A DNA stretch of 64,000 nt from Sphingosinicella sp. GTDB lineage: Bacteria > Pseudomonadota > Alphaproteobacteria > Sphingomonadales > Sphingomonadaceae. The notes beneath the pieces were generated by a model. That model was not told where the DNA came from. It was given only the letters and a program-made list of their open reading frames with translations, and searched no databases. Below are positions 30,937 to 55,372 of the stretch, piece by piece. A program made the position numbers and the translations under genes. Position 1 is the stretch's first letter; each line of letters opens with the position of its first letter. The stretch is taken from the NCBI RefSeq assembly GCF_013911755.1, contig NZ_JACESP010000013.1, forward strand, positions 42,022-106,021, read 5' to 3'.

Positions 30937-30964
30937 CTTACCCTAAATGTGATCGCTCTTACCC
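30937..30964 (+). promoter_or_regulatory. Paired TTACCC boxes upstream of FAD oxidase operon
   Basis: CTTACCC occurs at 30937-30943 and again at 30958-30964 (21 bp apart, same strand and helix face), about 135 bp before the oxidase start. The same paired boxes occur at 42416/42438, 52775/52795 (minus strand) and 52876/52897. The rest of the 203-bp gap 30895-31097 shows no gene. Confidence 0.55.
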
Positions 30965-31097
30965 CTTGGCGCACTAGAAAAAGCTGATGAAAAGCGCTCC
31001 AAAAGACGTGGGTCTTTTGCGAAACAGCACCTTGATCTCAGCGGAGACTGTAACGCAGGCGCCTTGGCAACGGCTTGTCCGGAGTGAGGGAGAAGAG

Positions 31098-32369
31098 ATG
31101 ACGACTCGCCGCCCGACGACATGCGGAACCGGTTTGGCGAACGCTCCGGTATCCCGTCGCAACATGCTCGGCGGAATGGCGTTGACAGGCGTTTTCGCCG
31201 GTGCGTTTTCGGACCGTGCCCTCGCCCAGGACTCCGACCGATGGAACGTCATCGTGATCGGCGCAGGTGTGTTTGGGGCATGGACAGCCTGGAATTTGCA
31301 GCGCAGGGGGCAGAAGGTCCTGCTCGTCGATGCCTGGGGCGCGGCGCATAGCCGGTCATCGTCCGGCGGTGAGACGCGCCTTATCCGCACGGAGTACGCA
31401 GGCAACGCGCTGTACACGCGCTGGGCGTGGGAATCGCTCGCAGAGTGGCATGGCCTGTCGCGTCGCCACGAAAGCCCGATCTTCCTCGAAACGGGCGCGC
31501 TTTACATGTACCCGCAGGATAGCGCGAAGATCGACGAGAGCATTGCGCTCCAGCGCGGGCTCGGCATACCGATCGAGAAAATGACAGCGCCCGAAATGGC
31601 GAAGCGCTGGCCGCAGATCAATTTCAGCGGCATCGCGGTGGGCGTAATGCAACCGACGATGGGCGCGCTGATGGCGCGCAGGAGTATTCAAAATCTCGTT
31701 TCCGAGTTCGTGAAAGCGGGCGGAACCTATCGGACGTTGGCCATCGATCCGCCACGTTCGACGGGATCGGCGCTCAATTCGATCTCGGGCAGCGTCGAGA
31801 CGCTGCGCGCAGACTCCTACGTCTTCGCCTGCGGCCCATGGCTTCCCACAATGTTTCCGGACGTGATCGGCAACCGTATCGTTCCGACCCGCCAGGAGGT
31901 GTTCTTTTTCGCGCCTGAGGCCGGCGACGCGCGCTTCGGACATGCGAACCTTCCGGCGTGGGTCGATGTCAGCAGCGCGGACCTTCATTACGGCTTTCCA
32001 GACATCGAAGCGCGCGGCTTCAAGATCGCGCTCGACAAGCATGGCCCGAAGACAGATCCGGACCGCAACGACCGCCGGGTGACCGATCAGGGCATTCACG
32101 ACGTTCGGAACTACCTTCGGCGGCGCTTTCCCGATCTTGCCGACCGTCCGCTCGCGGAAACACGGGTCTGCCAGTACGAAAACAGCGACAACGGCCATCT
32201 GCTGATCGACCGGCACCCGCTTTGGGCAAACACATGGATCGTGGGCGGCGGCAGCGGACACGGCTTCAAACATGGGCCTGCCGTCGGGCGCTATGTGGCT
32301 GAGCATGTGCTAGGGGAAGGCAAGACCGAACCGGACCTTGCCTTGAGCGCACACCGGCCGCATGGCTGA
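31098..32369 (+). CDS. FAD-dependent amine oxidase (sarcosine / N-methyl-tryptophan oxidase-like), Tat-exported
   Basis: A 423-residue DAO-family flavoprotein. The N-terminus has a twin-arginine signal (SRRNMLGGMALTGVFAGAFSDRALAQ), so a folded flavoprotein is exported to the periplasm. The FAD motif VIVIGAGVFGAWTAWNL follows, then SRSSSGGETRLIR and the C-terminal GGGSGHGFKHGPAVGRYVAE, matching monomeric sarcosine/N-methyl-amino-acid oxidases. Earlier in-frame starts lie beyond the ribosome site (GGGAGAAG before 31098). It heads a two-gene operon with a secreted esterase and lies behind paired TTACCC boxes. It probably oxidises a secondary amine; the substrate is unknown. Confidence 0.86.
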   Translation: MTTRRPTTCGTGLANAPVSRRNMLGGMALTGVFAGAFSDRALAQDSDRWNVIVIGAGVFGAWTAWNLQRRGQKVLLVDAWGAAHSRSSSGGETRLIRTEYAGNALYTRWAWESLAEWHGLSRRHESPIFLETGALYMYPQDSAKIDESIALQRGLGIPIEKMTAPEMAKRWPQINFSGIAVGVMQPTMGALMARRSIQNLVSEFVKAGGTYRTLAIDPPRSTGSALNSISGSVETLRADSYVFACGPWLPTMFPDVIGNRIVPTRQEVFFFAPEAGDARFGHANLPAWVDVSSADLHYGFPDIEARGFKIALDKHGPKTDPDRNDRRVTDQGIHDVRNYLRRRFPDLADRPLAETRVCQYENSDNGHLLIDRHPLWANTWIVGGGSGHGFKHGPAVGRYVAEHVLGEGKTEPDLALSAHRPHG

Positions 32370-32381
32370 AGGGGAATGCGA

Positions 32382-33254
32382 ATGATCAAACTTGTCCCTG
32401 TCGCAGCGCTGCTCTTGTTCCCTGCCATGGTCGCAAGCGCGGCCCCCGCGGCGACGCCATCTCCCCCAGGCTATACGATGCCGTCCACGCATATGTGGGA
32501 CATGAAAGCCGACACGGGCGAGATTTACCGGATATTCGTCTCCTTCCCGATTGAAGGCGAACCACCGGCGGACGGCTATCCCGTGCTTTATGTGCTGGAC
32601 GGCAACGCGAGCTTCGCCTCCTTTGCCGAAGCGCGGCGCCTGCAAGAGTTCTACCCTGTCGGGAAATCGATCGTGGTCGGCGTCGGCTACCCGACCGAAA
32701 AGACGTATGACGTAAGACGGCTCAGCGACCTGACGCCGCCACTCCTCGATCCGCCGCCGACGCAATGGCGATGGCTGGCGACGTACAAAAGCGGAGGCCG
32801 CAAGGAATTCCTGGATTTCCTGACCGGCAAGCTGCGCACCGAAATCGGGAAGCGCTACAAGATCGATCCCGAGCGGCAGTCGCTGTTCGGCCATTCGCTC
32901 GGCGGGCTGTTCGGCCTCTATTCGCTCTATTCCCGACCCGATGCCTTCCATTCGATCATCGCGGCGAGCCCTTCCATCGAATGGAACGATCAGGGCGTGC
33001 TGGCCGAGGAACGGGAATTCACTGCGCGGCTCACCAGCGGCAAGATCGGCAAGACGAGTCGCCTGATGATCGTCGTGGGCGACCGCGATGTCGATGATGA
33101 TCCCGAACCCGCCCGCGCGCTCGCCGACCGGCTTGACCGTCTTTCAGGTCACGGCCTGCGTGTTCGCTTCACGCGCTACGAGAAGGAAGGCCACATGAGC
33201 GTGCCCGCACGGTCCGTAACCGATGTGCTGAGATTCGCGTTCGAAATCCGCTGA
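32382..33254 (+). CDS. Secreted alpha/beta-hydrolase, IroE/esterase-D-like (paralogue 1)
   Basis: A 290-residue periplasmic hydrolase. It has a signal peptide ending VASA, a nucleophile elbow G-H-S172-L-G-G, and the catalytic His in the C-terminal EGHMSVP (about 275). The ATG at 32382 is 7 bp after AAGGGG, whereas the earlier ATG at 32376 is only 1 bp away. It belongs to the putative esterase family that includes trilactone esterases for catecholate siderophores. A close paralogue is at 47873-48733; both share ADGYPVLYVLDGNA and FAEARR stretches. It lies 12 bp after the amine oxidase. Confidence 0.87.
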   Translation: MIKLVPVAALLLFPAMVASAAPAATPSPPGYTMPSTHMWDMKADTGEIYRIFVSFPIEGEPPADGYPVLYVLDGNASFASFAEARRLQEFYPVGKSIVVGVGYPTEKTYDVRRLSDLTPPLLDPPPTQWRWLATYKSGGRKEFLDFLTGKLRTEIGKRYKIDPERQSLFGHSLGGLFGLYSLYSRPDAFHSIIAASPSIEWNDQGVLAEEREFTARLTSGKIGKTSRLMIVVGDRDVDDDPEPARALADRLDRLSGHGLRVRFTRYEKEGHMSVPARSVTDVLRFAFEIR

Positions 33255-33285
33255 GCGCGGTCAGGGTGTCGGCTGCGTGTTGTTT

Positions 33286-34584
33286 TCAGCGCGCGCGCGG
33301 CAGCAGGCATATCATCGCCGCCGCGATCAACCCGCCGACGCCCATCAGCAGCGAAACGATCAGCAGACTATTCCCACCGGCAAACAACGCACCCGCGACG
33401 ACCGGCCCCAGTGCAGAGCCGCCGCGCCCGACGCCGATCACGAACCCGGTTCCGCTGGCGCGCAGCGCCGCCGGATAGGTCTGGGCGAAGATCGGGTACA
33501 TGCCGACAACCCCGGCATTGACGAAGAATGCCGCCACGGCAGCCGTGATCGAAAGCCGCGTGAGATCAGCGCCGACGAGGCCGAAAGCCCCGATCGCGAG
33601 AAACCCGGCCAGCATCGCACCGGCAACGAGGGGGCGCAGGTTGAAACGCTGGCTCGCGAGACCGATGACCAGGGCACCCGCCAGATTTCCGACATTGGCC
33701 GCGACGAGCACGCGGCCCGCCTCCGCCGCATCGAAGCCGAGATCGACGACGATCTTCGGAATCCATTTCTGGATGTAATAGAAAAACAGGATCTGCGCGA
33801 AATAGGCCGTGGTGAGCAGGATCGTCACGCGCGCATAGTTCTGAGAAAAGAGCGAAGCGATGGACGGCTTCACGACCTGTTCCGGCGGCGCGGGCAGCGC
33901 ATCGACCGGCGCGTGGCCAAGTTTCCGGAGCATTTGATTGACGCTTTCAAGCGCACCTGCCGGTCGCCGCGCAATCAGCGATTCGATCGATTCCGGCAAA
34001 AAGAAAACCACCAGTGGAATTAACGCGGCCGTTGCCGCCGTACCGAGCATGAAGACGGATCGCCAGTCGCCCGTCGTCGCCAGCAATCCGGAAGCCACCA
34101 GTCCGCCCGAAATGGCGCCGACCGAATAGCCCGCGATGTTCAGCACCATGCTGAGACCGCGCCGGCGATCATTGGAGAACTCGGCGACCATTGCGCTCGT
34201 CGACGAGAGCATGCCACCGATGCCGATGCCCGTTAGAAATCGCACCGCAGAAAGCGTCATCACGTCGTTCGCGTAGAGCGCCGCGGCCATGCCGAGCGTC
34301 ATCACGATCAGGCAGGAAAGTATCGTCGGCCGCCGCCCGATCCTGTCGGCGATGTTGCCGATGAGCACGGAGCCTGCCGCCATGCCGAACAGTTCCATCG
34401 ACAGGACCACGCCCAGCGTCGCTCTATCCACACCCCACTCAGCCGCGATGCCGGGCGCCGCGAAACTGATCGCGAGCACGTCGAACCCGTCGAGCGCGTT
34501 GAGCGCGATGCACAGCGCCACGACAACAATCTGCGCCGGACGCATTGGCGAGGCTGCAAGCACCGCCCTTGGGTCATTGTTCAT
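33286..34584 (-). CDS. MFS transporter, aromatic acid:H+ symporter (AAHS) family
   Basis: A 432-residue twelve-helix major facilitator. The AAHS signature DGFD is in the first helix (NALDGFDVLAISFAAPGIA), and loop 2-3 carries GNIADRIGRRPTIL. Members import benzoate-type acids with protons. It lies 70 bp after the IclR gene in the same direction, as the last gene of an aldehyde dehydrogenase-SDR-IclR-transporter series, and ends convergent with the esterase 31 bp away. It is the likely importer for the carboxylate handled by those enzymes. Confidence 0.9.
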   Translation of the reverse strand: MNNDPRAVLAASPMRPAQIVVVALCIALNALDGFDVLAISFAAPGIAAEWGVDRATLGVVLSMELFGMAAGSVLIGNIADRIGRRPTILSCLIVMTLGMAAALYANDVMTLSAVRFLTGIGIGGMLSSTSAMVAEFSNDRRRGLSMVLNIAGYSVGAISGGLVASGLLATTGDWRSVFMLGTAATAALIPLVVFFLPESIESLIARRPAGALESVNQMLRKLGHAPVDALPAPPEQVVKPSIASLFSQNYARVTILLTTAYFAQILFFYYIQKWIPKIVVDLGFDAAEAGRVLVAANVGNLAGALVIGLASQRFNLRPLVAGAMLAGFLAIGAFGLVGADLTRLSITAAVAAFFVNAGVVGMYPIFAQTYPAALRASGTGFVIGVGRGGSALGPVVAGALFAGGNSLLIVSLLMGVGGLIAAAMICLLPRAR

Positions 34585-34654
34585 GCTGCCCCTCCCCCGC
34601 CGAACGCGCGCCGGATGGGCCGCCCGGACTCTTCATTGAATCTGGATACGCAGG

Positions 34655-35377
34655 CTACAGCGTCGCCAGATGCCTTGCGACGATCGCCGCCATTTCGGGA
34701 CGCCGCTCCAGGCAGCGCGACACCGGCCCGACCACCACCACGGACAAGCGCCGGTCGCTGCCCGGCAAAGGCAGGGCCACACCCGCAAGATCGGGCGTGT
34801 ATTCGGCGTTGCTCTGGTGCCAGCCGCGTTCGGCGGCGCGTGCCAGCTTCGCTTCCACCGCCTGCGGCGTGGTGGGCGTGGCGGGCGAATACGCGGTAAA
34901 ATCGATCTTGCGATACAGGCGCTCGCGTTCGTCCGGGCTCAGCTGCGCGAGAAGTGCACGCCCCGCCGAACTGGCATGGATCGGCACCCGGTCGCCGACG
35001 CTTGCGAAATAGCGCACCGGCTGACGCGACTCCGCGACATCCACGAAGGTTGCGAAGATGCCTGCTGGCGCCGAGATCGCCGCCGTCTCTCCGGTGGCTT
35101 CCATCAGATCGCGGGCCAGCCGCTGGAAGCGTTCGGGCAGCGGCTCTGCCCGCGTCACCGCTTCCGCGAGCACCAGCCAGCGGGGACTGGGATAATAGCT
35201 GCCGCGACCGCGCGGTTCGTAGAGATAGCCTTTGGCGGCGAGCGTACCCACCAGCTTGAACGTGCTCGAACGCGGCCAGCCGAGATCCACGGCCATCTCG
35301 GCGGGGGTCGCCGGCTTCAGCCGCTTCGCGAAATATTCGAGGATTTCCAGCACATTGGCTGCTTGCCGCACGATCAT
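34655..35377 (-). CDS. IclR-family transcriptional regulator
   Basis: A 240-residue regulator. The N-terminal winged helix is VLEILEYFAKRLKPATPAEMAVDLGWPRSSTFKLVGTLAAKGYLYEP (about 9-56), and the C-terminal effector domain follows with ASVGDRVPIHASSAGRALLAQLSP and RGWHQSNAEYTPDLAGVALPL. The ATG at 35377 is the natural fold start; longer in-frame readings overlap the SDR gene. It probably controls the divergent promoter at 37714-37792, where an IclR-like inverted repeat lies, in response to an aromatic or dicarboxylic acid. Confidence 0.9.
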   Translation of the reverse strand: MIVRQAANVLEILEYFAKRLKPATPAEMAVDLGWPRSSTFKLVGTLAAKGYLYEPRGRGSYYPSPRWLVLAEAVTRAEPLPERFQRLARDLMEATGETAAISAPAGIFATFVDVAESRQPVRYFASVGDRVPIHASSAGRALLAQLSPDERERLYRKIDFTAYSPATPTTPQAVEAKLARAAERGWHQSNAEYTPDLAGVALPLPGSDRRLSVVVVGPVSRCLERRPEMAAIVARHLATL

Positions 35378-35456
35378 GTTGGTTTTCGCCTGAAGGGTAT
35401 TGCAGCCTCCCGTATGGCCGAAGCGGCGCGCCCGGAAAAGCTGCAAGCACCTCGCG

Positions 35457-36221
35457 TCACCGTGCCGTGAAGCCGCCGTCGACCGGCAAGGCGACGCCGG
35501 TGACGAAGCTCGCCTCGTCGGAGACCATCCAGAGCACCGCGTCTGCCACCTCGCCCGGCTTAACGAGCCTGCCCATCGGCACCGCCGAGACGATCTTCGC
35601 CTCATTCGCCGCAGCTTCCGCCGGATCGCCGCTGCGGCCCGTGAAGCCGACCTTCATCGGCGTATCGGCAAGGCCGGGGCAAACGACGTTGACGCGGATA
35701 TTGTCGGGCGCGAAGGCGAGCGCGAGGCTTTTGCCGAGCCCGACGACGCCCCACTTCGCGGCGGAATAGATCGGGCTCATCATCGATCCGACGAGGCCGG
35801 AGATCGAGGATGTGAACACGATCGCACCGCCGCCGCGCGCGCGCATGTGCGGCGCCACTTGTCCGGCACCCAAGGCCGCTGCGGTGACGTTGAGCGCGAT
35901 CGCCTTGTCATAGGCGGCAAGATCGAGGTTTTCGACCGATGCCGGCCCGGGCATTCCGGCATGTGCCCACAGAATATCCGCGCCGCCCAGCGCCGCGACG
36001 GCGCGGTCGATGCTGTCGGTCGCACCTTCGGGCGTGGAGAGATCGGCGGCGACCGGTGTCACCCGGCTCTCCCCGAACTCGTGAACGAGCGCCGCAAGCG
36101 CATCCGGGTTGATATCGATGGCGGCAACGCGCGCGCCTTCGCGCACGAAACGCTCCACGCCGGCGCGGCCCATGCCCGATGCTGCGGCGGTGACGATGGC
36201 GAGCTTGCCCGAAAGGCGCAT
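35457..36221 (-). CDS. Short-chain dehydrogenase/reductase
   Basis: A 254-residue classical SDR with TAAASGMG (11-18) as cofactor motif, AHAG (87-90), and S139, Y152, K156 (YSAAK) as the catalytic set. The C-terminus SFVTGVALPVDGGFTAR is standard. The ATG at 36221 gives MRLSGKLAIV; a longer in-frame start overlaps the aldehyde dehydrogenase stop. It lies 10 bp after that gene, so an alcohol-to-aldehyde or ketone step followed by aldehyde oxidation is likely. Confidence 0.9.
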   Translation of the reverse strand: MRLSGKLAIVTAAASGMGRAGVERFVREGARVAAIDINPDALAALVHEFGESRVTPVAADLSTPEGATDSIDRAVAALGGADILWAHAGMPGPASVENLDLAAYDKAIALNVTAAALGAGQVAPHMRARGGGAIVFTSSISGLVGSMMSPIYSAAKWGVVGLGKSLALAFAPDNIRVNVVCPGLADTPMKVGFTGRSGDPAEAAANEAKIVSAVPMGRLVKPGEVADAVLWMVSDEASFVTGVALPVDGGFTAR

Positions 36222-36231
36222 GGTCTTGTCC

Positions 36232-37713
36232 TCAGTTTGCGAAGGGATCGGCGAAGGTGCCGGTGGTCGAAACGATCGTGGTCTTGGTTTCAAGGAACGG
36301 ATCGAGTCCCTCGATACCGTTCTCGCGGCCCCAGCCGCTCGCCTTGACGCCGCCGTAGGGCGTCGACCAGCGGATGTAGCGGTAGGTGTTCACCCACACC
36401 ATGCCCGCCTCGATCCGCGCGGCGACACGGTGCGCGCGGCCCGTGTCTCGTGTCCACAGCCCTGCGGCGAGCCCGTAGGGCGTCGAATTGGCGATGGAGA
36501 CTGCCTCCTCCTCACCGTCGAACGGGATGATCGCGGCCACCGGCCCGAAGATTTCCTCCTGCGCGATCCGCATGTCCGCCGAGACCCCCGCGAACACGCT
36601 CGGCTCGACGAAATAGCCGCCGGCGAGACCGTCGCGATCGATGCGCGCGCCGCCCGTTACCAGTTCGGCGCCCTCCGCGCGGCCGATCGCGACGTAGGAG
36701 AGCGTCTTTTCGAGCTGCTGCTGATGCGCCTGCGGGCCCATGTGCGTAGCGGGGTCGAGCGGCATTCCGACACGCACGCGCGCGGCGCGCTCGCGGAACG
36801 CCTCGACGACCCTGTCGTAGACAGGCCGCTCAACGAGGACGCGGCTGCCGAGTGCGCAGCTCTGGCCGCAGAGCGCCCATGCCGAGCCGGTCGCCGCGTT
36901 TAGCGCCTGATCGAGATCAGCGTCGGCAAAGAGGATATGGGGGGCCTTGCCGCCCAGTTCGAAGGTGCAGCGCGTCAGCGTGTCCGCGCCCGCTTTCAGG
37001 ATGGTCTTCGCCGTCGTCCCCTCGCCCGTGAAGCTGATCTTCGCGACATCGGGATGTTCCACCAGACGCGCACCAGCGACCGGGCCGTCACCCGGCACAA
37101 CGTTGACGACGCCGGGCGGAAACCCTGCCTCTTCGAACAGATGCGCCAGCGCCAGCGATGAGGCCGGAGTTTGCTCGGCGGGCTTCAGCACCACCGTGCA
37201 GCCCGCCGCGAGCGCTGGCCCGAGTTTCCACGCCGCCGCCATCAGCGGCACGTTCCACGGCGTGATCGCGCCGACCACGCCCACGGGATGGCGCGTGGTG
37301 AAGGCGTGAACGCTGTCGTCCATCGGAATGGTGCGCCCACCGAGCTTGTCGGCGAGCGAGGCGAACCAATGATAATATTGCGCGTGCAACCCGATATCGC
37401 CGCGCGATTCGCGCACGGCGCGTCCGTTGTCGCGCGTTTCGACCTCGGCGAGCGCACCGACGCGCGTTGCATAGAGGTCCGCGAATTTGCGCAAGAGCGC
37501 CGCGCGCTCCCACGGCGGCATCTTCCGCCACGGCCCCTCGAACGCCGCCTTCGCCGCCGCGACCGCCGCATCGATGTCGCGCGCGCCGCCGTAAGCCACG
37601 TCACCCCACGGCTGGCCCGTCGCCGGATCGATGCTCGGCCGCACGCCCCCATCGAGCGGGGCGACCCACGCGCCGCCAATGAAAAGACGATCGAAACGGA
37701 AACCGGTCGACAT
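36232..37713 (-). CDS. Aldehyde dehydrogenase (NAD(P)-dependent)
   Basis: A 493-residue ALDH of standard length. The active site is complete: N154 (TPWNVP), E252 (FELGGKAP) and catalytic C286 (GQSCALGSR). It also has EEIFGPVAAIIPF and the C-terminal YGGVKASGWGRENG. It oxidises an aldehyde to a carboxylic acid in the cytoplasm. First gene of the leftward operon, divergent from a CaiB-type CoA-transferase across a 79-bp promoter region. Confidence 0.94.
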   Translation of the reverse strand: MSTGFRFDRLFIGGAWVAPLDGGVRPSIDPATGQPWGDVAYGGARDIDAAVAAAKAAFEGPWRKMPPWERAALLRKFADLYATRVGALAEVETRDNGRAVRESRGDIGLHAQYYHWFASLADKLGGRTIPMDDSVHAFTTRHPVGVVGAITPWNVPLMAAAWKLGPALAAGCTVVLKPAEQTPASSLALAHLFEEAGFPPGVVNVVPGDGPVAGARLVEHPDVAKISFTGEGTTAKTILKAGADTLTRCTFELGGKAPHILFADADLDQALNAATGSAWALCGQSCALGSRVLVERPVYDRVVEAFRERAARVRVGMPLDPATHMGPQAHQQQLEKTLSYVAIGRAEGAELVTGGARIDRDGLAGGYFVEPSVFAGVSADMRIAQEEIFGPVAAIIPFDGEEEAVSIANSTPYGLAAGLWTRDTGRAHRVAARIEAGMVWVNTYRYIRWSTPYGGVKASGWGRENGIEGLDPFLETKTTIVSTTGTFADPFAN

Positions 37714-37723
37714 CGCGACTCCT

Positions 37724-37754
37724 CAAATAATTTCTATTTGTGGACATTTTTGTC
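37724..37754. promoter_or_regulatory. Inverted repeats in ALDH/CoA-transferase divergent promoter
   Basis: CAAATA-N5-TATTTG (37724-37740) is a perfect 17-bp inverted repeat followed directly by GACA-N4-TGTC (37743-37754). It lies in the only AT-rich stretch nearby and is a good candidate operator for the IclR protein encoded downstream. Confidence 0.5.
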
Positions 37755-37792
37755 TCTCTTTGGGAATAGAAGTCAAGACGGAGACGCGAACG

Positions 37793-38989
37793 ATGCTGGC
37801 ATTGCTGGAAGGAATACGGGTAATCGAGGTGGGCGCCGTGGTGCTCGGCCCCTATGCGGGTCAGTTGCTCGCGGACCTCGGCGCCGACGTCATCAAGGTC
37901 GAGCCCATGGAAGGCGATATCGCCCGCCATGCCCATCCGCGCGGCGAAGGCGGCGGCGCGCTTTTCGTGAACAACAACCGCAACAAGCGGATGCTAGCGA
38001 TCGACCTGAAGGCCGCCGAGGGCCGCGCGACCTTCGCGGAGCTGCTGAAAACCGCAGACGTTCTTTTCCACAACATGCGCATCGACGCCGCCGACCGTCT
38101 CGGCCTTGGCTTCGAGGCCGTGGCGGCGATCAATCCGCGCATCGTCCACTGCGCCGCCGTCGGCTTCGGCCAGCGCGGCCCGTATCGTGATCGCCCGGCC
38201 TTCGACGACATCATACAGGCGGTAAGCGGCATCGCGGGCCTCGGCACGGCAACGGGCGGCGACCCGCGCTTCGTCCCCACCATTCTCGCCGACAAAATCG
38301 CCGCGCTTCACGCGGTCTATGGGATCCTTGCCGCGCTCCTCGCCCGCGCGAACGGCCGCGAGGGGGCGATCAAGGTCGAGGTGCCAATGTTCGAGGCGCT
38401 GGCCGCGTTTCTTCTCAACGAGCATCTGGCAGCTGCAACGTTTGAGTCGGGGGGCGCCGTGGGCTATCCCCGCGTGCTCTCACCCAATCGCCGTCCGTTC
38501 CGCAGCGCCGACGGCTGGATCGCAGTGCTGCCCTACACGGACCGCCAGTGGCGCGCGTTCCTGTCGGAGATCGGCCGCGGAGATGTAGCGGAAGAAGGCT
38601 GGTTCCGCGATCCCCAGCAGCGCCCCGCGCATATCGACGAGCTCTACGCGCTCGTCGCCGAAAGCATGGCCGCGCGCACGACCGCCCAATGGATTGCCGC
38701 GCTTTCGGAGTGCGACGTGCCGTGCTCGGAAGTGAACAGCCTCGAAGACCTGCTCACCGACCCGCACCTCACCCAGGTCGGCTTTTTCGATGTTCCTGAT
38801 GGTTATCCCGAAGGCATTGTCCGTAGCCTGCCACAAGCCGTGCTGTTCCACGGCTTCGAACCCCAGCCCGACAGGGCGCCGCACGGTCTTGGAGAAGATA
38901 GCCGGGCTATCCTACGCGAAACCGGAATGCGGGAAAGCGACATCGATGCGCTGATCGCGATGGGCGTCGTCAATAGCGTCCCGGATTGA
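37793..38989 (+). CDS. CaiB/BaiF family III CoA-transferase
   Basis: A 398-residue class III CoA-transferase. It has ALLEGIRVIEVGAVVLGPYAGQLLADLGADVIKVE at the start, NNNRNKRMLAIDLKAAEGRATF, and the segment RPAFDDIIQAVSGIAG with the aspartate that carries the acyl anhydride in this family. Starting at the ATG 37793 gives the canonical N-terminus; longer in-frame readings enter the divergent ALDH gene. It would move CoA from a donor acyl-CoA to the carboxylate produced by the ALDH. Its end overlaps the convergent PaiB-like gene by 20 bp. Confidence 0.92.
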   Translation: MLALLEGIRVIEVGAVVLGPYAGQLLADLGADVIKVEPMEGDIARHAHPRGEGGGALFVNNNRNKRMLAIDLKAAEGRATFAELLKTADVLFHNMRIDAADRLGLGFEAVAAINPRIVHCAAVGFGQRGPYRDRPAFDDIIQAVSGIAGLGTATGGDPRFVPTILADKIAALHAVYGILAALLARANGREGAIKVEVPMFEALAAFLLNEHLAAATFESGGAVGYPRVLSPNRRPFRSADGWIAVLPYTDRQWRAFLSEIGRGDVAEEGWFRDPQQRPAHIDELYALVAESMAARTTAQWIAALSECDVPCSEVNSLEDLLTDPHLTQVGFFDVPDGYPEGIVRSLPQAVLFHGFEPQPDRAPHGLGEDSRAILRETGMRESDIDALIAMGVVNSVPD

Positions 38990-39581: not shown

Positions 39582-39625
39582 CGTTTCCGCTCGCGAGGAG
39601 CCAATAATCTCTGCAGTGCAGGGCT

Positions 39626-42304: not shown

Positions 42305-42415
42305 GGGGCCCCGACCTCGCGCGCGTGATTTCATTCTACCGAATGAGCCGAAGTTACGGGTTGAGCGCGGGCCTGGCAACCGGGCGGGACGCTTGTGCAC
42401 GGTAGCCGCGGGGTT

Positions 42416-42464
42416 TTACCCGAATCGGGCAGGCGCATTACCCGTTCGCACCCGCTCACACCCG
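42416..42464 (+). promoter_or_regulatory. TTACCC-box array in LAL/HyuA intergenic region
   Basis: TTACCC occurs at 42416-42421 and 42438-42443 (22 bp apart). The second is followed by ACCCG at 42449-42454 and 42460-42464 in a roughly 10-bp rhythm (related units ending in ACCCG), forming a direct-repeat array. A mirrored CCCGTAA/TTACGGG pair sits at 42354-42360 and 42461-42467. The array is about 100 bp before the HyuA start. The 236-bp gap otherwise holds no gene. Confidence 0.55.
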
Positions 42465-42540
42465 TAATTCGCGTTGCGTACGAGGGGCCAGGCCCTTCAA
42501 ATCCCCCAGAGTTTGCGAGCGACGCTTCGAGGAGGATCAG

Positions 42541-45259: not shown

Positions 45260-46509
45260 GCGGCGGGCACAGCGATGCCCATGCCAGCGGACCGCTGCCG
45301 GAACACCTGACCGTCGCGGGATGGCGCGTGGCGCTCATCATCACGAGCTTTACCTTCTCGCTGCCGGGCTTCCTGAACGGCGCACAGACCGGACTCGCGC
45401 TCGGGCTCGACAAGGCGGTTCTCGCCGCCCTTCTCTCCGGGCTCATCCTTTGCGCTGCCGCCTGCCTCACCGCGATCATCAGCGTTCGTACACGGCTGAC
45501 GACCTATCTGCTCGTCCAGCGCTCGTTCGGCATGAAGGGCGCGGCGCTGGTCAACATCGTGATCGCAATCGTCCATTTCTGCTGGTTCGGGGTCAATGTG
45601 TCGTTCTTCGGCGATGCAATGGTTGCCGCGTCGAAGCAGGGTTACGGGATACCCGGCGATTTCGGCACGTTCGTCATCCTGGGCAGCGTGCTGATTACGG
45701 CCTCGACGATCTACGGCTTTCGCACACTCGACCGGCTGGCGATGGTTGCCGTGCCGCTGGCGGGCATCATTCTGGTCGCCGTGTGCGTCACCGCCGTCGG
45801 CGCCCAGCCGGTCGCTCTCGCGCCCGTCGCGAACCCGCCGACGCCGATGAGCTTCGGCATCGCTCTTTCCGCGCTCGTCGGCGGCAACATGCTTACCGTC
45901 GCCGCGATGCCGGACCTGTCGCGCTTCATCCGCACCGAGCGCGGCGCGATCTGGGGGATGCTTCTTTCTTTTCCGCTCGCTGCGCCCGTGCTCATGCTGA
46001 TTTCGGCATTGATCGCGCTGGCGACTGGGCAAACGGACATCATGCAGATCGTCGTCGCCATGGGTTTCGGCATTCCGGCACTCGCCATGCTGCTGCTCTC
46101 CGTGTGGACGATCAACGCGCTCAATCTCTATTCCGCCGGGCTCTCGATGGCCGCAACCTTTCCCGGTGTCCGCCAATGGGTCATCATCGTCGTCGGCGGG
46201 ACGATCGGCTGCATCTTCGCGCTGCTCGGCATCATCAATTCCTTCATTCCGTTTCTGGTGACGCTTGGCCTAATCATTCCGCCGATCGCGGCCATCTACG
46301 TGATCGACGGCTTCTCGCGTTTTCGGGGAGCGGACGGCGAGGCTCCGCCCGCAATCCGCTGGGACGCGATCGGCGTGTGGCTGGGTTCGCTCGCCATCAC
46401 CCTGCCCGCGATGCGCATGGGTCTGTCGCTCACGACCGTTCCCGCGCTCGATGCCACGCTGCTCGCCGCAGGCAGCTACGGGCTTTTGCTGTGGTGGCGG
46501 CAGCGATGA
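45256..46509 (+). CDS. NCS1-type permease (nucleobase/hydantoin transporter)
   Basis: A 417-residue membrane protein with about twelve transmembrane segments, related to cytosine/allantoin/hydantoin permeases. The soluble N-terminus is followed by ITSFTFSLPGFLNGAQTGLALGLDKAVLAALLSGLILC, then RTRLTTYLLVQRSFGMKGAALVNIVIAIVHFCWFGVN, a hallmark of the family. It would import the cyclic amide across the inner membrane for the overlapping HyuA/DUF917 pair. It is bounded by ATGA overlaps on both sides. Confidence 0.9.
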   Translation: MSGGHSDAHASGPLPEHLTVAGWRVALIITSFTFSLPGFLNGAQTGLALGLDKAVLAALLSGLILCAAACLTAIISVRTRLTTYLLVQRSFGMKGAALVNIVIAIVHFCWFGVNVSFFGDAMVAASKQGYGIPGDFGTFVILGSVLITASTIYGFRTLDRLAMVAVPLAGIILVAVCVTAVGAQPVALAPVANPPTPMSFGIALSALVGGNMLTVAAMPDLSRFIRTERGAIWGMLLSFPLAAPVLMLISALIALATGQTDIMQIVVAMGFGIPALAMLLLSVWTINALNLYSAGLSMAATFPGVRQWVIIVVGGTIGCIFALLGIINSFIPFLVTLGLIIPPIAAIYVIDGFSRFRGADGEAPPAIRWDAIGVWLGSLAITLPAMRMGLSLTTVPALDATLLAAGSYGLLLWWRQR

Positions 46510-47873
46510 TCGCCACGCTCGACGCCCATGCGCAGGCCGCGCTCGTCCGCAGCGGCGAGGTTGCGCCGACCATGCTCGTCGAGGCCGCGATAGAGCGGAT
46601 CGAAAAGCTCGATCCCGTCGTCAACGCCGTCAGCCACCGCGCCTTCGACCATGCGCTTGAAGCAGCACGCTCGGTGGACAGAGCCGCGCCGATGGCGGGA
46701 GTTCCGTATCTGCTCAAGGCCTCGCTCGAATATCCCGGTTTCCCGATGCTGTCGGGCTCGCGGACGCGGACGGGCGCGACGGGCAAGGTCCGTTACCCCT
46801 TCACCGCTCGGTTGGATGCAGCGGGGCTCATTCCCGCCGGGATGTCGACCATGCCGGAGTTCGGCCTGATCGGCACGGGCGAGGCACTGCTGTACGGCCC
46901 CACTCGCAACCCGTGGGATCTGACACGCAGCAGCGGCGGTTCGAGCAGCGGTGCGGCGGTGGCAGTCGCGGCGGGCATGGTGCCTTTCGCCACGGGCAGC
47001 GACGGCGGCGGTTCGATCCGCATTCCAGCCTCGCATTGCGGCGTCATCGGTTTCAAGCCGAGCCGGGGATGGAACCTCCGCGCGCGCGGGGCGAGCCTCG
47101 CAGACGATCTGCTGACCTCCGACGGGCTTTACGGTCGCACGATGCGCGACACGATCTGGGCCGCGCGGTTTCTTCGGCCGCAGTCGGGTGAGACGAAGTC
47201 GACCGATACGCTGCGGGTGGCAGTGAGTTTGAAAGGACTGGACGGGTTGCAGCCTGATCCGGCCGTTGCCGAAGTGATCGGGAAGGCAGCGGCTCTGTGC
47301 GAGACACTTGGGTGGCGTGTGGAACCCTGCGAGCCGCCGATCGATCGCGGTGCGCTGAGCCGTGCGTTCGATGTTCTGTGGAGCTATGGCGGCGGGGATG
47401 TCGTTGATCTTTGCCGGGCGCGGCTGGCGGCGCAGGCGGATGCCCTGCTCGAACCGTGGACGCTGGGGCTTGCGCGGCGGCGCGACGGCATGACGGCCGA
47501 CGATCTTGCCGCCGCGCTCGGCGCGATTGCGGAGATCGACGGAAGCCTCGATGCGTTCTGGCAGCAGTACGATGTCGTGCTGAGCCCAGTCACCAGCAGC
47601 ACACCGCCACCGCTCGGCGTGCTGGCACCCGACCGGGAGTTCGAAGCGCTGTGGCGCGATCACTTCCGGCATGTGAACTATACGCAGGTTCAGAACATGG
47701 CGGGGTATCCCGGCCTGTCGCTGCCGCTGTTCATGGCGTCCGACGGCCTTCCAGCGGGCGCCATGTTCTGGACGCGGCATGGCGGCGACGACCTGCTGCT
47801 CGCGCTCGGCGCCGCGCTGGAAGAGGCTCAGCCCTGGGCCGACCGTCGCCCGCCGACAGGAGACCTGATGTGA
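46506..47873 (+). CDS. Amidase signature-family amidohydrolase
   Basis: A 455-residue amidase. The Ser-cisSer-Lys triad is visible as K71 (LLKASLEY), the cis-Ser in RSSGGSSSG (142-149) and the nucleophile S170 in GSDGGGSIRIPA. There is no signal peptide, so it is cytoplasmic. The ATG overlaps the permease stop (ATGA), and an ORF opening far upstream is an artefact of the other frame. It probably splits the carbamoyl or amide product of the ring opening. Confidence 0.93.
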   Translation: MIATLDAHAQAALVRSGEVAPTMLVEAAIERIEKLDPVVNAVSHRAFDHALEAARSVDRAAPMAGVPYLLKASLEYPGFPMLSGSRTRTGATGKVRYPFTARLDAAGLIPAGMSTMPEFGLIGTGEALLYGPTRNPWDLTRSSGGSSSGAAVAVAAGMVPFATGSDGGGSIRIPASHCGVIGFKPSRGWNLRARGASLADDLLTSDGLYGRTMRDTIWAARFLRPQSGETKSTDTLRVAVSLKGLDGLQPDPAVAEVIGKAAALCETLGWRVEPCEPPIDRGALSRAFDVLWSYGGGDVVDLCRARLAAQADALLEPWTLGLARRRDGMTADDLAAALGAIAEIDGSLDAFWQQYDVVLSPVTSSTPPPLGVLAPDREFEALWRDHFRHVNYTQVQNMAGYPGLSLPLFMASDGLPAGAMFWTRHGGDDLLLALGAALEEAQPWADRRPPTGDLM

Positions 47874-48733
47874 TGCGACCCATTTGCCTTGCCGTCGCCC
47901 TTGCACTCGCCGTTCCGGCGGCGGCGGCGGAACCCGTATCCGTTCCCTACGCGATGCCCGAAACCGAGACGTGGGACATGACCTCGGCCGATGGGCAGGT
48001 GTTTCGCATCTTCGTTTCGCGTCCCTCGGCGCCGGCTCCGGCGGACGGCTATCCGGTCCTCTACGTGCTCGACGGAAATGCAATGTTCGCGGGCTTCGCC
48101 GAAGCGCGCCGCATCCAAGGCTTCGGTAGTAGCGGCATCGACAAGATGATCGTCGTGGGCGTCGGCCATCCGGGCGAACAGATTTACGATCCACGGCGCA
48201 TGTTCGATTTCACCGCGCCCATCGCAACCCCGGCGCTGAAACAGGCCTTCGCGCAATATCAAAGCGGCGGGCGCGACCGGTTCGCGAAGTTCCTGCTCGA
48301 CGAGCTGCGCCCGGCAATCGAGAAGCGCTATTCCTTGAACACCACCCGGCAATCGCTTTACGGGCATTCGCTCGGCGGCCTGTTCGCGCTCCATATGCTT
48401 TATTCCCGCCCCGGCGCGTTCCGCACGATCATCGCGACCAGCCCTTCGATCTGGTGGGACAACCAATCCATCCTGGCGGAAGAGGCTGCGTTCAGGGCAC
48501 AGGTCCTGAAGACCCCCGATACCGGCAAGGCGACCAGTTTGCTGCTGATGGCGGGTGAACGCGAAGAGGAAGGCAATATTCCGGGCGATACGAAGGCGCT
48601 CGCGCAGCGCATGGCGACGCTTTCCGCGCAGGGTCTGCGCAGCGACTTCATCATGCTGGATGAAGAAACCCATATCTCTGTACCGAGCCGGTCGGTCACC
48701 GCGAGCCTGCGCGCGGCGGCGCGCGCGCGTTAA
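47873..48733 (+). CDS. Secreted alpha/beta-hydrolase, IroE/esterase-D-like (paralogue 2)
   Basis: A 286-residue protein with signal peptide (MRPICLAVALALAVPAAAA), nucleophile elbow GHSLGG and a C-terminal EETHISVPSRSV His region. It is a close paralogue of 32382-33254, sharing DGYPVLYVLDGNA, FAEARR, SGGRxxFxxFL and YSRPxAFxxIIAxSPSI. The start shares one base with the amidase stop (TGATG). Both copies end separate TTACCC-box operons. It likely hydrolyses an ester in the periplasm, releasing a piece for import. It converges with the amidohydrolase by 4 bp. Confidence 0.88.
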   Translation: MRPICLAVALALAVPAAAAEPVSVPYAMPETETWDMTSADGQVFRIFVSRPSAPAPADGYPVLYVLDGNAMFAGFAEARRIQGFGSSGIDKMIVVGVGHPGEQIYDPRRMFDFTAPIATPALKQAFAQYQSGGRDRFAKFLLDELRPAIEKRYSLNTTRQSLYGHSLGGLFALHMLYSRPGAFRTIIATSPSIWWDNQSILAEEAAFRAQVLKTPDTGKATSLLLMAGEREEEGNIPGDTKALAQRMATLSAQGLRSDFIMLDEETHISVPSRSVTASLRAAARAR

Positions 48734-50487
48734 GGCGCCTTCGCCGCGCCCAACGACGACCAGTTTCCAAACACCGGCCTGCCTTCGAACAGCGTGACCA
48801 TCACCTTCGCCTTGCCGATTTCGAGCGGGGCGAGCGTGAAGATGTTCCGGTCGAGAACGACAAGATCCGCACTCTTGCCGGGCGCTATCGATCCCGTCAG
48901 CGTTTCCATGCCGTTCGCATAGGCGACATTCAGCGTATGCGCGCGGATCGCCTGCTCCAGCGTAATCGCTTCCTTGGGAAGCAGCGGCGGTGTTGCAGGC
49001 TCTTCATAATTCACGCGCGTAACTGCAACCTGAAGGCCGAACAGCGGGTTCGCGGTCGCCACGGGCCAATCGGCACCATAAGCGATCATGCCGCCCGGCG
49101 CGAGAATGCCATGCGAAGGATAGATGTAGCCGGATCGCACCGGACCGATCGCCTGTTTGGTGAGGTCCATATACGGATAGTTGCTCGACCACGTCGGCTG
49201 GAACTGCGCGATGACGCCGAGCTCGCCGAAGCGCGGCTGATCGGCCGGATCGACGACGTTGAGGTGCGAGATCATCGGCCGGTTCGCGGTGCCGTTGCTA
49301 TTCTTTGCGGCAGCGAATGCATCGAGCGCGACGCGCACGGCACGGTCCCCGATCGCATGGACGTGCGGCTGAAAACCATCCTTGCCAAGCGTGGTGATCG
49401 CCTGCGCCAGCGTTTCGGGCTTGATCTGCAAAGGCCCGCGATGGTCGCCCGCGTGCTCGTAGGGCGCGATCATGGCCGCCGTCTGCTGCGGAATGACACC
49501 GTCCGCATAGAATTTGACCGATTTTGCGCTGATTCCCCACGCGGCGGCACGTTCGGAAGCGACCCGGATCGCCGGGATCTGTTCCAGGCCCCGCTCATTC
49601 TCCCATTTGAAGGCGAGCGAAACATGCGCGCTCAGCTCTCCGCGGTCCTTGACGGCGTGATAGGCTGCAAGCGTTTCACTGGTTCCGTCGGCGGCGAGAT
49701 CGATGCCGGCGTCGTGCCAGTTCGTGATGCCGAGGCTGTTGAAGTGGTGCGCGACATAAACGATCGACTTCTGCACCTCTTCCGCCGTGGGCTTTGGAAT
49801 GAGATCGCCGACCAGCGTCATGGCGGCTTCCTGCAAGCCGCCCACCGGCTCGCCTGTCGCGGGATCACGGTCGATGTGACCGTTGGCCGGATCGGGTGTG
49901 CCCTTGGTGATCCCAGCGATCTGGAGCGCTTTCGAATTCACCCAGTAGCTGTGGCCACCGACGGATTCGAAGATCAGCGCGCGCTTCGTCGTGACGGCAT
50001 CAAGCAGTTCCTTGCGCGGCACGCCCTTGGGCGGAAACAGCGCGTCCTGCCAGCCGACGCCGTAGATCGGCCCGTCACCAGGCGATGCAGCCACGCAGCG
50101 GGCAACGATCTTCTGGTAATCCTCCACGGTCTTGCCGTCGTGGAGCGAGCAGCGCGTATAGGCCATGCCACCGAACACGGGATGCACGTGCGCGTCGCCG
50201 AACGCAGGCATGAGCAGGCGCCCGCCGAGATCGACGGTACGGGTATCGGTTCCCCGATATCTCAGCATGTCCTTCGCAGAACCCACGGCGACGATCTTGC
50301 CGTTGTCGATCGCAACGGCTTCCGCCCACGGCTGCGCGGTTTCCACCGTGTAGACGCGCGCGTTGGTGAGGATGAGATCGGCCGTTTCCGCAGGCGACTG
50401 CACGGCCTGCCCCGCACAGGACGCGAGAAGCATTGCGCCGAGGGCGACAGCGGCTTTCGGCAGAAAATTGCGGGAAGGCAGGATCAT
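48730..50487 (-). CDS. YtcJ-like amidohydrolase lipoprotein
   Basis: A 585-residue metal-dependent amidohydrolase. The N-terminal lipobox LLASC (Cys24) marks it as a lipoprotein, followed by ADLILTNARVYTVE, the metal pair HVH (FGDAHVHP), SHLNVVDPADQPRFGELGV, AYGADWPVA and the C-terminal SADLVVLDRNIF typical of the YtcJ/imidazolonepropionase-like group. It lies 62 bp after the TonB receptor in the same direction. A surface-bound hydrolase partnered with a receptor suggests cleavage at the outer membrane before or after uptake. A second member without a lipid anchor is at 60432-62102. Confidence 0.9.
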   Translation of the reverse strand: MILPSRNFLPKAAVALGAMLLASCAGQAVQSPAETADLILTNARVYTVETAQPWAEAVAIDNGKIVAVGSAKDMLRYRGTDTRTVDLGGRLLMPAFGDAHVHPVFGGMAYTRCSLHDGKTVEDYQKIVARCVAASPGDGPIYGVGWQDALFPPKGVPRKELLDAVTTKRALIFESVGGHSYWVNSKALQIAGITKGTPDPANGHIDRDPATGEPVGGLQEAAMTLVGDLIPKPTAEEVQKSIVYVAHHFNSLGITNWHDAGIDLAADGTSETLAAYHAVKDRGELSAHVSLAFKWENERGLEQIPAIRVASERAAAWGISAKSVKFYADGVIPQQTAAMIAPYEHAGDHRGPLQIKPETLAQAITTLGKDGFQPHVHAIGDRAVRVALDAFAAAKNSNGTANRPMISHLNVVDPADQPRFGELGVIAQFQPTWSSNYPYMDLTKQAIGPVRSGYIYPSHGILAPGGMIAYGADWPVATANPLFGLQVAVTRVNYEEPATPPLLPKEAITLEQAIRAHTLNVAYANGMETLTGSIAPGKSADLVVLDRNIFTLAPLEIGKAKVMVTLFEGRPVFGNWSSLGAAKAP

Positions 50488-50549
50488 TGGACTCTCACGC
50501 GAAAAACCTGAAGAGGAGCACGCCTGGGCGTGCTCCTCCTGGAGGACAA

Positions 50550-52661
50550 TCAGAACTTGCGCGTCAGCGACGCAAGCAGCGTGCGGTCCTTCGCCGCCGT
50601 ACACAGGCCATGTGTCGTCGCGAGCAGCGAACAGAGGTCGTAGTATTTCTTGTTGAACAGGTTGCTCGCGTTGACGGACGCGACCCACTGCCCCCGGGTT
50701 GCCGACACCATCGCATCGACCAGCGTCACCGACGGCGTCAGGAATGACTGGCCCGCATCGATCTTGTTACCGATATGACGCACGCCGGCACCGGCACGGA
50801 CCTGCCAGTCGTCTCCCACCATGAACGTCTTCGATCCCCAGATCGAAGCGAGTTGCCGCGGCTGCGCCGAGAGACGGTCGCCGGCCGTAAGCGTCGAGCT
50901 TGACGTCAGCACCTTCGCGTCGATGTAGCTATAGGACGCGGTGAACTCGAAGTTTTCAGGCATCCGTATGATCGCTTCGAGCTCAACGCCCGTCGAGCCC
51001 ACGGAACCACCCTGAATGAAATTCTGGATGTTGCCGGGATCCTGCGAAATATAGTTCGATTCCTTGATGTCGAAATACGCCACGCTGAGCAGGGCGCCGC
51101 GCATCGGCTCCCACTTCACGCCGCCCTCGTACTGGCGGGCGGTGCGGGGCGCATACGGATTTCCGAAGAAGTCGCCGCCCGGCACGGGCAGGAAGGATTC
51201 GGCGTAGTTGAAATAGGGCGAAACGCCTTTCACCACCTCGGCGATGATACCGCCGCGGAACGACCATGCCGTCTGCGAAAGCTCAGACACGCCGTTGCGC
51301 TTCGAAGTCGCCTTGTCGCGGCGCAGGCCGAGCACGACATGCACGCGGTCGGCGTAGCTCATCTGGTTCTGAACATAGAAACCGAGCTGCGTGCTCTTGT
51401 AATCGAGGAAGTTGAAAGCGCCGTAGTCGAAATCCGCACCATATTCCGGATTATAGATGTTGATGGGCGGTGGCGCCGGGAATGGGAAGAAGTTGAGGTA
51501 CGAGAAGCCCTCGTCCTTGCTCTGCTTGAACCACGTATAATCGACGCCGAGCAGAACCTTGTGCTCGATCGGGCCGGTCGCGAAATCGATCGAGAGATTG
51601 TTGTCGCTGTTGAAGACCTTGCTCTTCTCGTAATTCACGTAGAACTCGCGGCGAAGCATCGTCTCCGCCTCGTCTTCCCAAGGTTCGCTCGTGTAGTTTG
51701 TGTAGACTTCCTTGTAGTCCGTATCCATGTGGCTGTAGCGCGAGGCGCTGCGGAAGGTGATCGCATCGCTGAAGCTGTGCGAGACGATCAGCGCGGCGGA
51801 CGCATATTCGGTGTCCATCCCGTTGAAACCGGGTTCGCCCTGATAGAAGTTGAACTTCACCCGCTCCGCCTTGCTCGGCGCGAGAAGCGACTTGAAGAGC
51901 GGCGCGTAGCCAAGCGAGCCCTGCTTGTCCTTCTGATAGAGGCCGATCAACGTGATGTCGGTGTTCGGGCCGGGCTGGAAACGCAGCGACGGGTTGATGA
52001 GCAGGCGGTCATCGGGCGTACCCCACTGCGTCTTGCCGTCGCGCAGCACGCCGACGAAGCGCGCAGCAACGCCCTCGGTGAGCGGACCTGTCACATCGAT
52101 CTGGCCCTGGATGCGGTCGTCAGTACCGCCGATGATGCCGACCTCGCCGCCGAATTCGAACTGCGGCAGCTTGCTGACCGCATTGAGAACGCCGCCGGGG
52201 CCGCCCGCGCCGTAAAGCACCGAAGACGGACCGCGCAGCACTTCGGCGCGTTCGAGCGTGAACGGCTCGAGCCGAGCGCCGTAGATGAAATCGGGCATAC
52301 GCTTCAGCCCGTCGAGATACTGCGCCGCATCGAAGCCGCGCGTCAGCACGAAGTCGCCGCGCGAGTCCACGCTGTTGTTGGAGGCGACACCGGCGCTGTA
52401 GCGGTAGACGTCCTGGAAGTCGACGACTGTGCGGTCCTGGAATTCCTGAGCGGTGACGACGCTGATCGACTGCGGCACTTCGGTGAGCGGCGTATCGGTT
52501 TTGGTCGCGGCGACTGCGCGCTCCGCCGTTACGATGATGCTTTCATCGTCACTGACGGCCTGCGCTGAGGCGGCCGTGGGCAGAAGTGCCACGCAGCTTG
52601 TCGAAAGTAGCGTCAGCCAGAGCTTCGACGTCGGACCGGAATTTTGGATTGCAAGCTTCAT
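50550..52661 (-). CDS. TonB-dependent receptor, siderophore-receptor-like
   Basis: A 703-residue receptor. Signal peptide cleavage is expected near AASAQA, then a TonB box-like DESIIVTA, a plug with LTEVPQSISVVTAQEFQDRTVVDFQDVYRYSAGV (the PQSI motif of ferrisiderophore receptors), AEVLRGPSSVLYGAGGPGGVLNAVSK, and a barrel ending TLLASLTRKF. The ATG at 52661 is used because AAGGGGG lies 5 bp upstream; an earlier ATG has no such site. Paired TTACCC boxes precede it on its strand. The PepSY gene is divergent, an arrangement common for siderophore uptake, though no clear Fur box is visible. Confidence 0.93.
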   Translation of the reverse strand: MKLAIQNSGPTSKLWLTLLSTSCVALLPTAASAQAVSDDESIIVTAERAVAATKTDTPLTEVPQSISVVTAQEFQDRTVVDFQDVYRYSAGVASNNSVDSRGDFVLTRGFDAAQYLDGLKRMPDFIYGARLEPFTLERAEVLRGPSSVLYGAGGPGGVLNAVSKLPQFEFGGEVGIIGGTDDRIQGQIDVTGPLTEGVAARFVGVLRDGKTQWGTPDDRLLINPSLRFQPGPNTDITLIGLYQKDKQGSLGYAPLFKSLLAPSKAERVKFNFYQGEPGFNGMDTEYASAALIVSHSFSDAITFRSASRYSHMDTDYKEVYTNYTSEPWEDEAETMLRREFYVNYEKSKVFNSDNNLSIDFATGPIEHKVLLGVDYTWFKQSKDEGFSYLNFFPFPAPPPINIYNPEYGADFDYGAFNFLDYKSTQLGFYVQNQMSYADRVHVVLGLRRDKATSKRNGVSELSQTAWSFRGGIIAEVVKGVSPYFNYAESFLPVPGGDFFGNPYAPRTARQYEGGVKWEPMRGALLSVAYFDIKESNYISQDPGNIQNFIQGGSVGSTGVELEAIIRMPENFEFTASYSYIDAKVLTSSSTLTAGDRLSAQPRQLASIWGSKTFMVGDDWQVRAGAGVRHIGNKIDAGQSFLTPSVTLVDAMVSATRGQWVASVNASNLFNKKYYDLCSLLATTHGLCTAAKDRTLLASLTRKF

Positions 52662-52774
52662 TCTTACCCCCTTTTTCATGCGGCTGCGTATTGCCGGGTG
52701 CGGCTGTCTGTTATCCCCGGCCTCCTACATCACGCATTCAACAACAGTCTCGGCAGACGGCGAACGGCTTTTGA

Positions 52775-52800
52775 GGGTAATGAGACGCAAAGACGGGTAA
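52775..52800 (-). promoter_or_regulatory. Paired TTACCC boxes for the TonB receptor
   Basis: On the minus strand TTACCC lies at 52800-52795 and again at 52780-52775 (20 bp apart), about 115 bp before the receptor start. They are oriented toward that gene, mirroring the plus-strand pair at 52876/52897. Confidence 0.55.
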
Positions 52801-52875
52801 GCCAAAAGCACATCTGCCGGGTAGCGGTTCTTGCCCATGCAAGTGACGCAGTTCTCACGTTTTCGGCTTTGATTG

Positions 52876-52903
52876 CTTACCCGGTTGCACATCAGGCTTA
52901 CCC
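52876..52903 (+). promoter_or_regulatory. Paired CTTACCC boxes for the PepSY gene
   Basis: CTTACCC at 52876-52882 and 52897-52903, exactly 21 bp apart as at 30937/30958, and 48 bp before the PepSY start. With the opposite pair at 52775/52795 it makes a two-way promoter. The rest of the 289-bp gap 52662-52950 shows no gene. Confidence 0.55.
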
Positions 52904-55314: not shown

Positions 55315-55372
55315 CGCGGTTCTTTCTCCGAACGCCTGACGCATCGATAACGAGTCCGCCCCACTTGAGGCA

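Follow-up and report, generated by a model that had tools for sequence, protein, structure and literature searches.

The window analysed here, a 64,000-nucleotide stretch of a Sphingosinicella sp. genome (contig NZ_JACESP010000013.1, positions 42,022 to 106,021 of the forward strand), carries four same-strand pairs of the hexamer TTACCC, which lie before genes dispersed on both sides of a LAL regulator gene (39626-42304, minus strand), the proposed binder of these boxes. The first pair, TTACCC-N15-TTACCC (30938-30964, plus strand), is situated 5' of an FAD-dependent amine oxidase (31098-32369, plus; DAO, PF01266) and an esterase (32376-33254, plus; PF00756). The second, TTACCC-N16-TTACCC (42416-42443, plus), forms boxes 1 and 2 of a three-box array, whose box 3, ACACCC (42458-42463, plus), lies 20 bp past box 2. 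It heads an operon, all on the plus strand, encoding a HyuA-like hydantoinase/oxoprolinase (42541-44166; PF05378, PF01968), a DUF917 / S-methyl-thiohydantoin desulfurase-like protein (44156-45259; PF06032, PF20906), a CodB-like NCS1 permease (45256-46509; PF02133), an amidase (46506-47873; PF01425) and a second esterase (47873-48733; PF00756). The third pair, TTACCC-N14-TTACCC (52775-52800, minus), precedes an operon of an FhuA/FoxA-like TonB-dependent receptor from the siderophore subfamily (50550-52679, minus) and a lipoprotein-like amidohydrolase (48730-50487, minus; PF07969; start corrected by eye). Back to back with it lies the fourth, TTACCC-N15-TTACCC (52877-52903, plus), before a PepSY transmembrane protein gene (52951-54045, plus; PF03929).

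All four pairs proposed in an initial annotation of this DNA are present, although its positions 30937 and 52876 include one prefix base, and 4/4 aim at the gene downstream, as it had claimed. Gene starts are mechanical except where corrected; those of the amine oxidase and PepSY genes, mechanically placed too early, were moved to ~31098 and ~52951 on the basis of homologues and N-terminal signals, and the proximal box ends ~134 bp and ~48 bp upstream, respectively. The chance expectation for pairs in the window is 0.01, and at least four were reached in 0/100 dinucleotide shuffles; single TTACCC words number 15 against 5.6 expected. The whole source genome (3.63 Mb) contains six pairs and no pair of the reversed control pattern. 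The two pairs outside the window, on contigs C15 and C33, each precede a gene for a secreted protein; these genes are near-identical, and the second one is truncated by the contig end. Relaxing the word to YTACCC yielded no extra site in this genome (reversed control, one). The initial annotation had missed the third HyuA box, both off-contig sites and the CTACCC variants described below. Two near-identical copies of a boxed promoter with its secreted protein, for which Pfam gave no match, are located at L005 1501-2955 and L006 1501-2039, and downstream of the L005 copy lies a 2OG-Fe(II) oxygenase-like gene.

Co-occurrence of the boxes with LAL orthologues

Across genomes, the boxes recur with their spacing, their orientation and their position before promoters, and they do so together with the LAL. 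In the genus, pairs are found in four of six genomes, exactly those with a LAL orthologue that is at least 78% identical, and are absent from the two without an orthologue, one of which is 83% complete. In the family (249 genomes; orthologue threshold E ≤ 1e-150), the six genomes with a LAL orthologue all have at least two pairs nearby, and 17 of their 21 pairs are no more than 50 kb from a LAL. LAL-negative family genomes yielded 49 pairs, counted by hand from listings in which the reversed-control hits, given for many of these genomes, were left unsummed; 28 of the 36 genomes concerned have a single pair. The six pairs of the source genome, and the occurrence of pairs in 36/243 LAL-negative versus 6/6 LAL-positive family genomes, bear out the initial annotation on how the pair compares with background. 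When one HyuA locus per family genome (20 loci) was inspected within ±1.5 kb, an exact pair was present in 5/6 with an orthologous LAL and in 0/14 without.

We extended the comparison to 79 loci from a collection of species genomes, the best of 473 LAL relatives (80 of 473 kept), chosen by LAL similarity. A natural identity gap divides them into 41 orthologue loci (46-94%) and 38 distant ones (at most 36%). Exact pairs occur at 33/41 orthologue loci versus 1/38 distant-LAL loci (64 pairs versus one), and the reversed word occurs at 0 in both, so conservation beside LAL orthologues, as the initial annotation had anticipated, was recovered. The sole distant-locus pair (L138) is directly 5' of a TonB receptor and amidohydrolase adjoining its LAL, and is thus probably a true site. 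In two loci retrieved afterwards, HyuA again has YTACCC pairs; one of the two has sequence in common with a locus of the original set.

The start-to-start spacing of the pairs in the orthologue loci is sharply confined: 19 bp in 7 cases, 20 bp in 16, 21 bp in 35 and 22 bp in 13, with 8 others at up to 80 bp. With the Steroidobacter clade left out, the remaining 35 orthologue loci hold 64 pairs at 20-22 bp versus 0.25 per 3 bp at 25-60 bp. Among 1133 hexamers repeated at 20-22 bp and ranked by the number of orthologue loci, TTACCC comes first, with 33 loci versus 30 for GC-rich words; after subtraction of the distant loci it leads by 32 to 24, ACCCGT being next.

The word itself has variants. 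Steroidobacter clade LALs, at 46-48% identity, have an altered recognition helix, and their loci carry C/TTACCC and CTGCCC boxes at the same pitch. Several LALs of 30-36% identity in HyuA loci are likewise accompanied by CTACCC arrays at this pitch, three in a row in L137. In a survey of HyuA upstream regions, whose rows are related and which excluded sequences under 150 bases and those identical in their final 120 bases, a YTACCC pair was present in 39/58 with a LAL within 800 bp versus 3/19 others; the latter class includes distant LALs ~2.3 kb away (at least L191 and L207), and in the three boxed cases the locus has a LAL further off. At L118 9700-10010 (Sphingomonas tagetis), TTACCC-N15-CTACCC lies upstream of the LAL; no HyuA was found there, and a neighbour resembles, by eye, the end of ssb. 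In L185, L186 and L188, inverted CTAC...GTAG-like words were seen by eye upstream of HyuA beside other LALs, a hint of a different operator in another LAL subclade.

The initial annotation had called the window's LAL the only one. No second LAL was listed inside the window by the search of the source genome, which has distant LALs (27-30% identity) elsewhere. Just before the window (G000:C5:25563-31995) lies a second LAL-HyuA neighbourhood, with a LAL 27% and a HyuA 47% identical to those of the window. This second HyuA (L207) has no YTACCC pair upstream, so paralogous systems may use other operators.

Putative target genes and promoter anatomy

To list the targets across loci, 73 distinct exact TTACCC pairs were collected, sites with identical surroundings being dropped. 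HyuA is downstream of 29 (26, plus 3 with a misjoined HyuA frame) and a TonB receptor of 23, followed by amidohydrolase (7), secreted protein (4), PepSY (2) and PD40-amidohydrolase (2). Cupin, amine oxidase and esterase account for one each, and three sites without a called gene resemble secreted-protein promoters. A pair in G016:C35, antisense within an ABC-transporter frame, was treated as chance.

The converse survey scored YTACCC pairs in sense before genes of chosen stretches, genes whose upstream left the stretch being dropped; it counts one G002 amidohydrolase twice, since L098 and L082 overlap. Pairs precede 32/39 HyuA and 27/32 TonB-receptor genes, the reversed word being found in 2/39 HyuA upstreams. 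HyuA of L123 and L133 were scored as misses, and pairs are present in both once the start is set by homology. Lower shares were obtained for amidohydrolase (7/40), esterase (6/25), PepSY (2/8) and cupin (1/6) genes, along with 4/6 secreted-protein, 2/2 PD40-amidohydrolase and 1/2 amine oxidase genes. In the same survey, no pair was found before 38 DUF917, 32 permease or 6 amidase genes, or before neighbouring Aldedh (0/17), CoA-transferase (0/18), MFS (0/16), FMN_bind_2 (0/12), SDR (0/10) and unknown (0/9) genes. The corresponding block of the window (33286-39629), comprising MFS, an unknown protein, SDR, aldehyde dehydrogenase, CoA-transferase III and FMN_bind_2, recurs with the LAL in many of the loci, and none of its families' genes counted in this survey carries boxes.

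The initial annotation had tied all four promoters into one regulon. Joining the HyuA-DUF917-permease-amidase-esterase operon with the TonB receptor-amidohydrolase operon is strongly supported, and the inclusion of PepSY and amine oxidase only thinly. Outside the source genome, the back-to-back PepSY/receptor arrangement is repeated in G002, and the amine oxidase homologue of G004 has a one-mismatch pair, TTACCC-N14-TTACTC, 111 bp upstream. A second receptor in G004, 1.5 Mb from its LALs, is also preceded by a pair, which supports action in trans. Seven extra TTACCC pairs at 19 bp (N13), a spacing not covered by the initial annotation, occur at seven places in six orthologue loci (L099, L102, L103, L107 and L139 near 17.5-20.1 kb; L104 at 16400), mostly near the cupin gene of Sphingopyxis-type loci, and these cupin-side pairs are a possible further target class.

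Promoters with exact TTACCC pairs, to which the anatomy is confined, fall into two classes. In 28/29 HyuA promoters a further YACCC box follows the second at 20-21 bp; receptor promoters have no such third box (0/23), and among the four window sites it occurs at HyuA only. In 19/23 receptor promoters, a -10-like TTSAAT lies 38-40 bp downstream of where box 2 begins, and in HyuA promoters a conserved TTG lies ~16 bp downstream of where box 3 begins. If TTSAAT is the -10 and TTG the -35, the proximal box would take up nearly one position in both classes, just upstream of the -35. Spacer bases beside the boxes carry little information, and the offset third-box and -10-like positions are kept.

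A proposed MalT-architecture regulator and rival explanations

The LAL protein (892 residues) combines an N-terminal AAA ATPase (AAA_16, 44.6 bits versus a Pfam cut-off of 32.6), a MalT-like TPR region (PF17874, 64.8 bits versus 45) and a C-terminal LuxR-type helix-turn-helix (HTH; PF00196, E 9.9e-13), and its residues 5-417 match the MalT structure 8bob (E 1.3e-45). The HTH is of the LuxR/NarL class, with sequence matches to the structures of ComA, VraR and NarL (PDB 1je8), and no Pfam match to a receiver domain was found in the protein. The base-contacting lysines of NarL presumably have counterparts in the LAL. PMC4549865 describes a NarL test site that includes TACCCCT, so a TACCC core is readable by such a recognition helix.

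The boxes and the LAL are best described as a variant of a MalT-type direct-repeat regulon. The likeness to Escherichia coli MalT extends from the ATPase, MalT-like TPR and C-terminal LuxR HTH to the repeated boxes near the -35. According to PMC7567727, the MalT box is GGGGA(T/G)GAGG, and a title cited in the literature describes MalT sites as direct repeats, an arrangement also seen in the spacing spectrum of the TTACCC pairs. In contrast, the word here is YTACCC, repeated two or three times at a regular two-turn pitch, and the regulon is one of HyuA and receptor genes. The exact MalT box is absent from the window; one-mismatch versions number 14 versus 8.1 expected (2/100 shuffles reach 14), none of them at the four promoters, and pairs of the core GGA(T/G)GA at 20-22 bp occur in 1/41 orthologue loci. 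Compared with NarL/FixJ response regulators, which share the HTH similarity and, in the site quoted above, the TACCC core, the LAL lacks a receiver domain by Pfam. Its conserved sites are same-strand pairs ~21 bp apart rather than the 7-2-7 inverted heptamers of NarL, for which no separate inverted-pair scan was made. In Actinoplanes sp. SE50/110, according to PMC7567727, MalT controls a large region outside maltose metabolism, a likeness to the LAL, whose putative targets also lie beyond maltose; the operator given there is a palindromic TCATCC-5nt-GGATGA over the -35, unlike the head-to-tail boxes here.

We consider it highly probable (roughly 0.85) that the boxes are the operator of a MalT-architecture LAL activator acting on head-to-tail YTACCC repeats in a dispersed regulon, and the genome, family and orthologue-locus comparisons support this central idea of the initial annotation. 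From sequence we infer direct binding, oligomerisation, activation over repression and the -35/-10 assignments. In such a mechanism, a ligand would activate the signal-transduction ATPase of the LAL, which would then line up on the head-to-tail boxes spaced by two helical turns. The HyuA promoter has three such boxes, whereas those of the receptor, amine oxidase and PepSY each have two. The promoter-proximal subunit would sit just upstream of the -35 and recruit RNA polymerase. The receptor with the lipoprotein amidohydrolase, the HyuA-DUF917-permease-amidase-esterase operon, the amine oxidase with its esterase, PepSY and the off-contig secreted protein would thereby be switched on. The inducer might perhaps be a cyclic amide or hydantoin-like compound imported by the receptor.

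Several observations weigh against this reading. The loci were selected by LAL similarity and are mutually related, so their counts are not independent, and a FastTree phylogeny of the LAL (74 rows; its long branches were flagged) shows just five changes in the presence of boxes anywhere in the locus. Exact pairs are missing from eight of the 41 orthologue loci (six of the Steroidobacter clade, L118 and L140), and a YTACCC pair is missing from 19 of the 58 HyuA upstream regions whose LAL lies at most 800 bp away. The raw lead of TTACCC over GC-rich words is narrow and becomes large only after subtraction. A sigma-70 consensus scan matched no promoter at the HyuA site, and the PepSY and amine oxidase sites are known from few genomes. 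Genome-wide, the relaxed pair does not exceed its reversed control in several genomes (4 versus 10 in G016, 2 versus 7 in G223), and YTACCC is therefore informative only beside the LAL or its targets.

Three other explanations are less likely. AraC-type activators, too, commonly use direct repeats with a spacing of ~21 bp, and the boxes might belong to a regulator of that kind or to a response regulator linked to the same genes, with the LAL a bystander. The linkage to the LAL is partly built into the locus collection. We regard such a regulator as improbable, because the family HyuA loci without a LAL orthologue are devoid of exact pairs, LAL-negative family genomes that have pairs mostly have one, the FMN-binding neighbour appears in just 16 examined stretches versus 48 for the LAL, and NarL, which has an HTH of the same class as the LAL, reads a site containing TACCC (PMC4549865). 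Repression or mere modulation of the operons by a LAL bound to the boxes appears slightly less probable still. The HyuA array occupies the region between the divergently oriented LAL and HyuA genes, is antisense to the LAL in 32/45 and could act from there on the LAL's own promoter as well; however, the boxes are upstream of, not over, the inferred -35/-10 in both promoter classes, and MalT is described as an activator in PMC7567727. Chance, or shared ancestry of non-functional DNA, is strongly disfavoured. Many loci are indeed from close relatives (three are titled Sphingomonas kyeonggiensis), yet shuffles and the reversed exact word give near zero, third-box and -10-like positions persist among spacers of low information, and different promoters within a single genome share the pair.

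Beyond the proposed activation by the LAL in the window, we see even odds that a whole clade of HyuA-linked LALs from Alpha- and Gammaproteobacteria has a common operator grammar, in which YTACCC boxes arranged head to tail at a constant pitch of two helical turns, two or three in number depending on the promoter type, place the proximal box at a constant distance from the -35. If true, DNA-templated side-by-side assembly would be a general mode of HyuA-linked LAL ATPases, and their regulons would be readable from sequence.

Possible function of the proposed regulon and its significance

The regulon may serve the uptake and degradation of a substrate, perhaps a cyclic amide, and its genes could plausibly make up a single catabolic pathway. 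A hydantoinase role has been suggested for DUF917 proteins (PMC11055893). The nearest NCBIfam family of the amine oxidase is N-methyl-L-tryptophan oxidase, with a score under that family's cut-off, and its N terminus, read by eye, is twin-arginine-like. Iron-siderophore uptake was considered from the FhuA/FoxA-like receptor, which reaches the TIGR01783 siderophore-subfamily cut-off; its scores stay below the equivalog cut-offs, and the enzymes give no indication of a role in iron uptake. An 850-aa permease-amidase fusion (45321-47873) was rejected as an out-of-frame extension, the permease and amidase being separate genes. A ring-hydroxylating dioxygenase beta subunit (29807-30418), without a box pair of its own, lies shortly upstream of the amine oxidase operon, and an HMG-CoA reductase gene (54025-55344; PF00368, E 6.8e-106) adjoins PepSY.

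LAL/MalT-type regulators are numerous, but apart from MalT and those of antibiotic clusters, an operator has to our knowledge been defined for few of them. A search of open-licence literature, which leaves most subscription journals outside, found no description of this operator or of a LAL-HyuA link; the LAL literature listed there concerns mostly Streptomyces. Box, pitch, promoter position and regulon are now predicted well enough for testing. The box also offers a handle on the unassigned receptor-HyuA-DUF917 system that lies beside the LAL in Sphingomonadaceae, Caulobacter, Phenylobacterium, Luteimonas, Pseudoxanthomonas and Steroidobacter.

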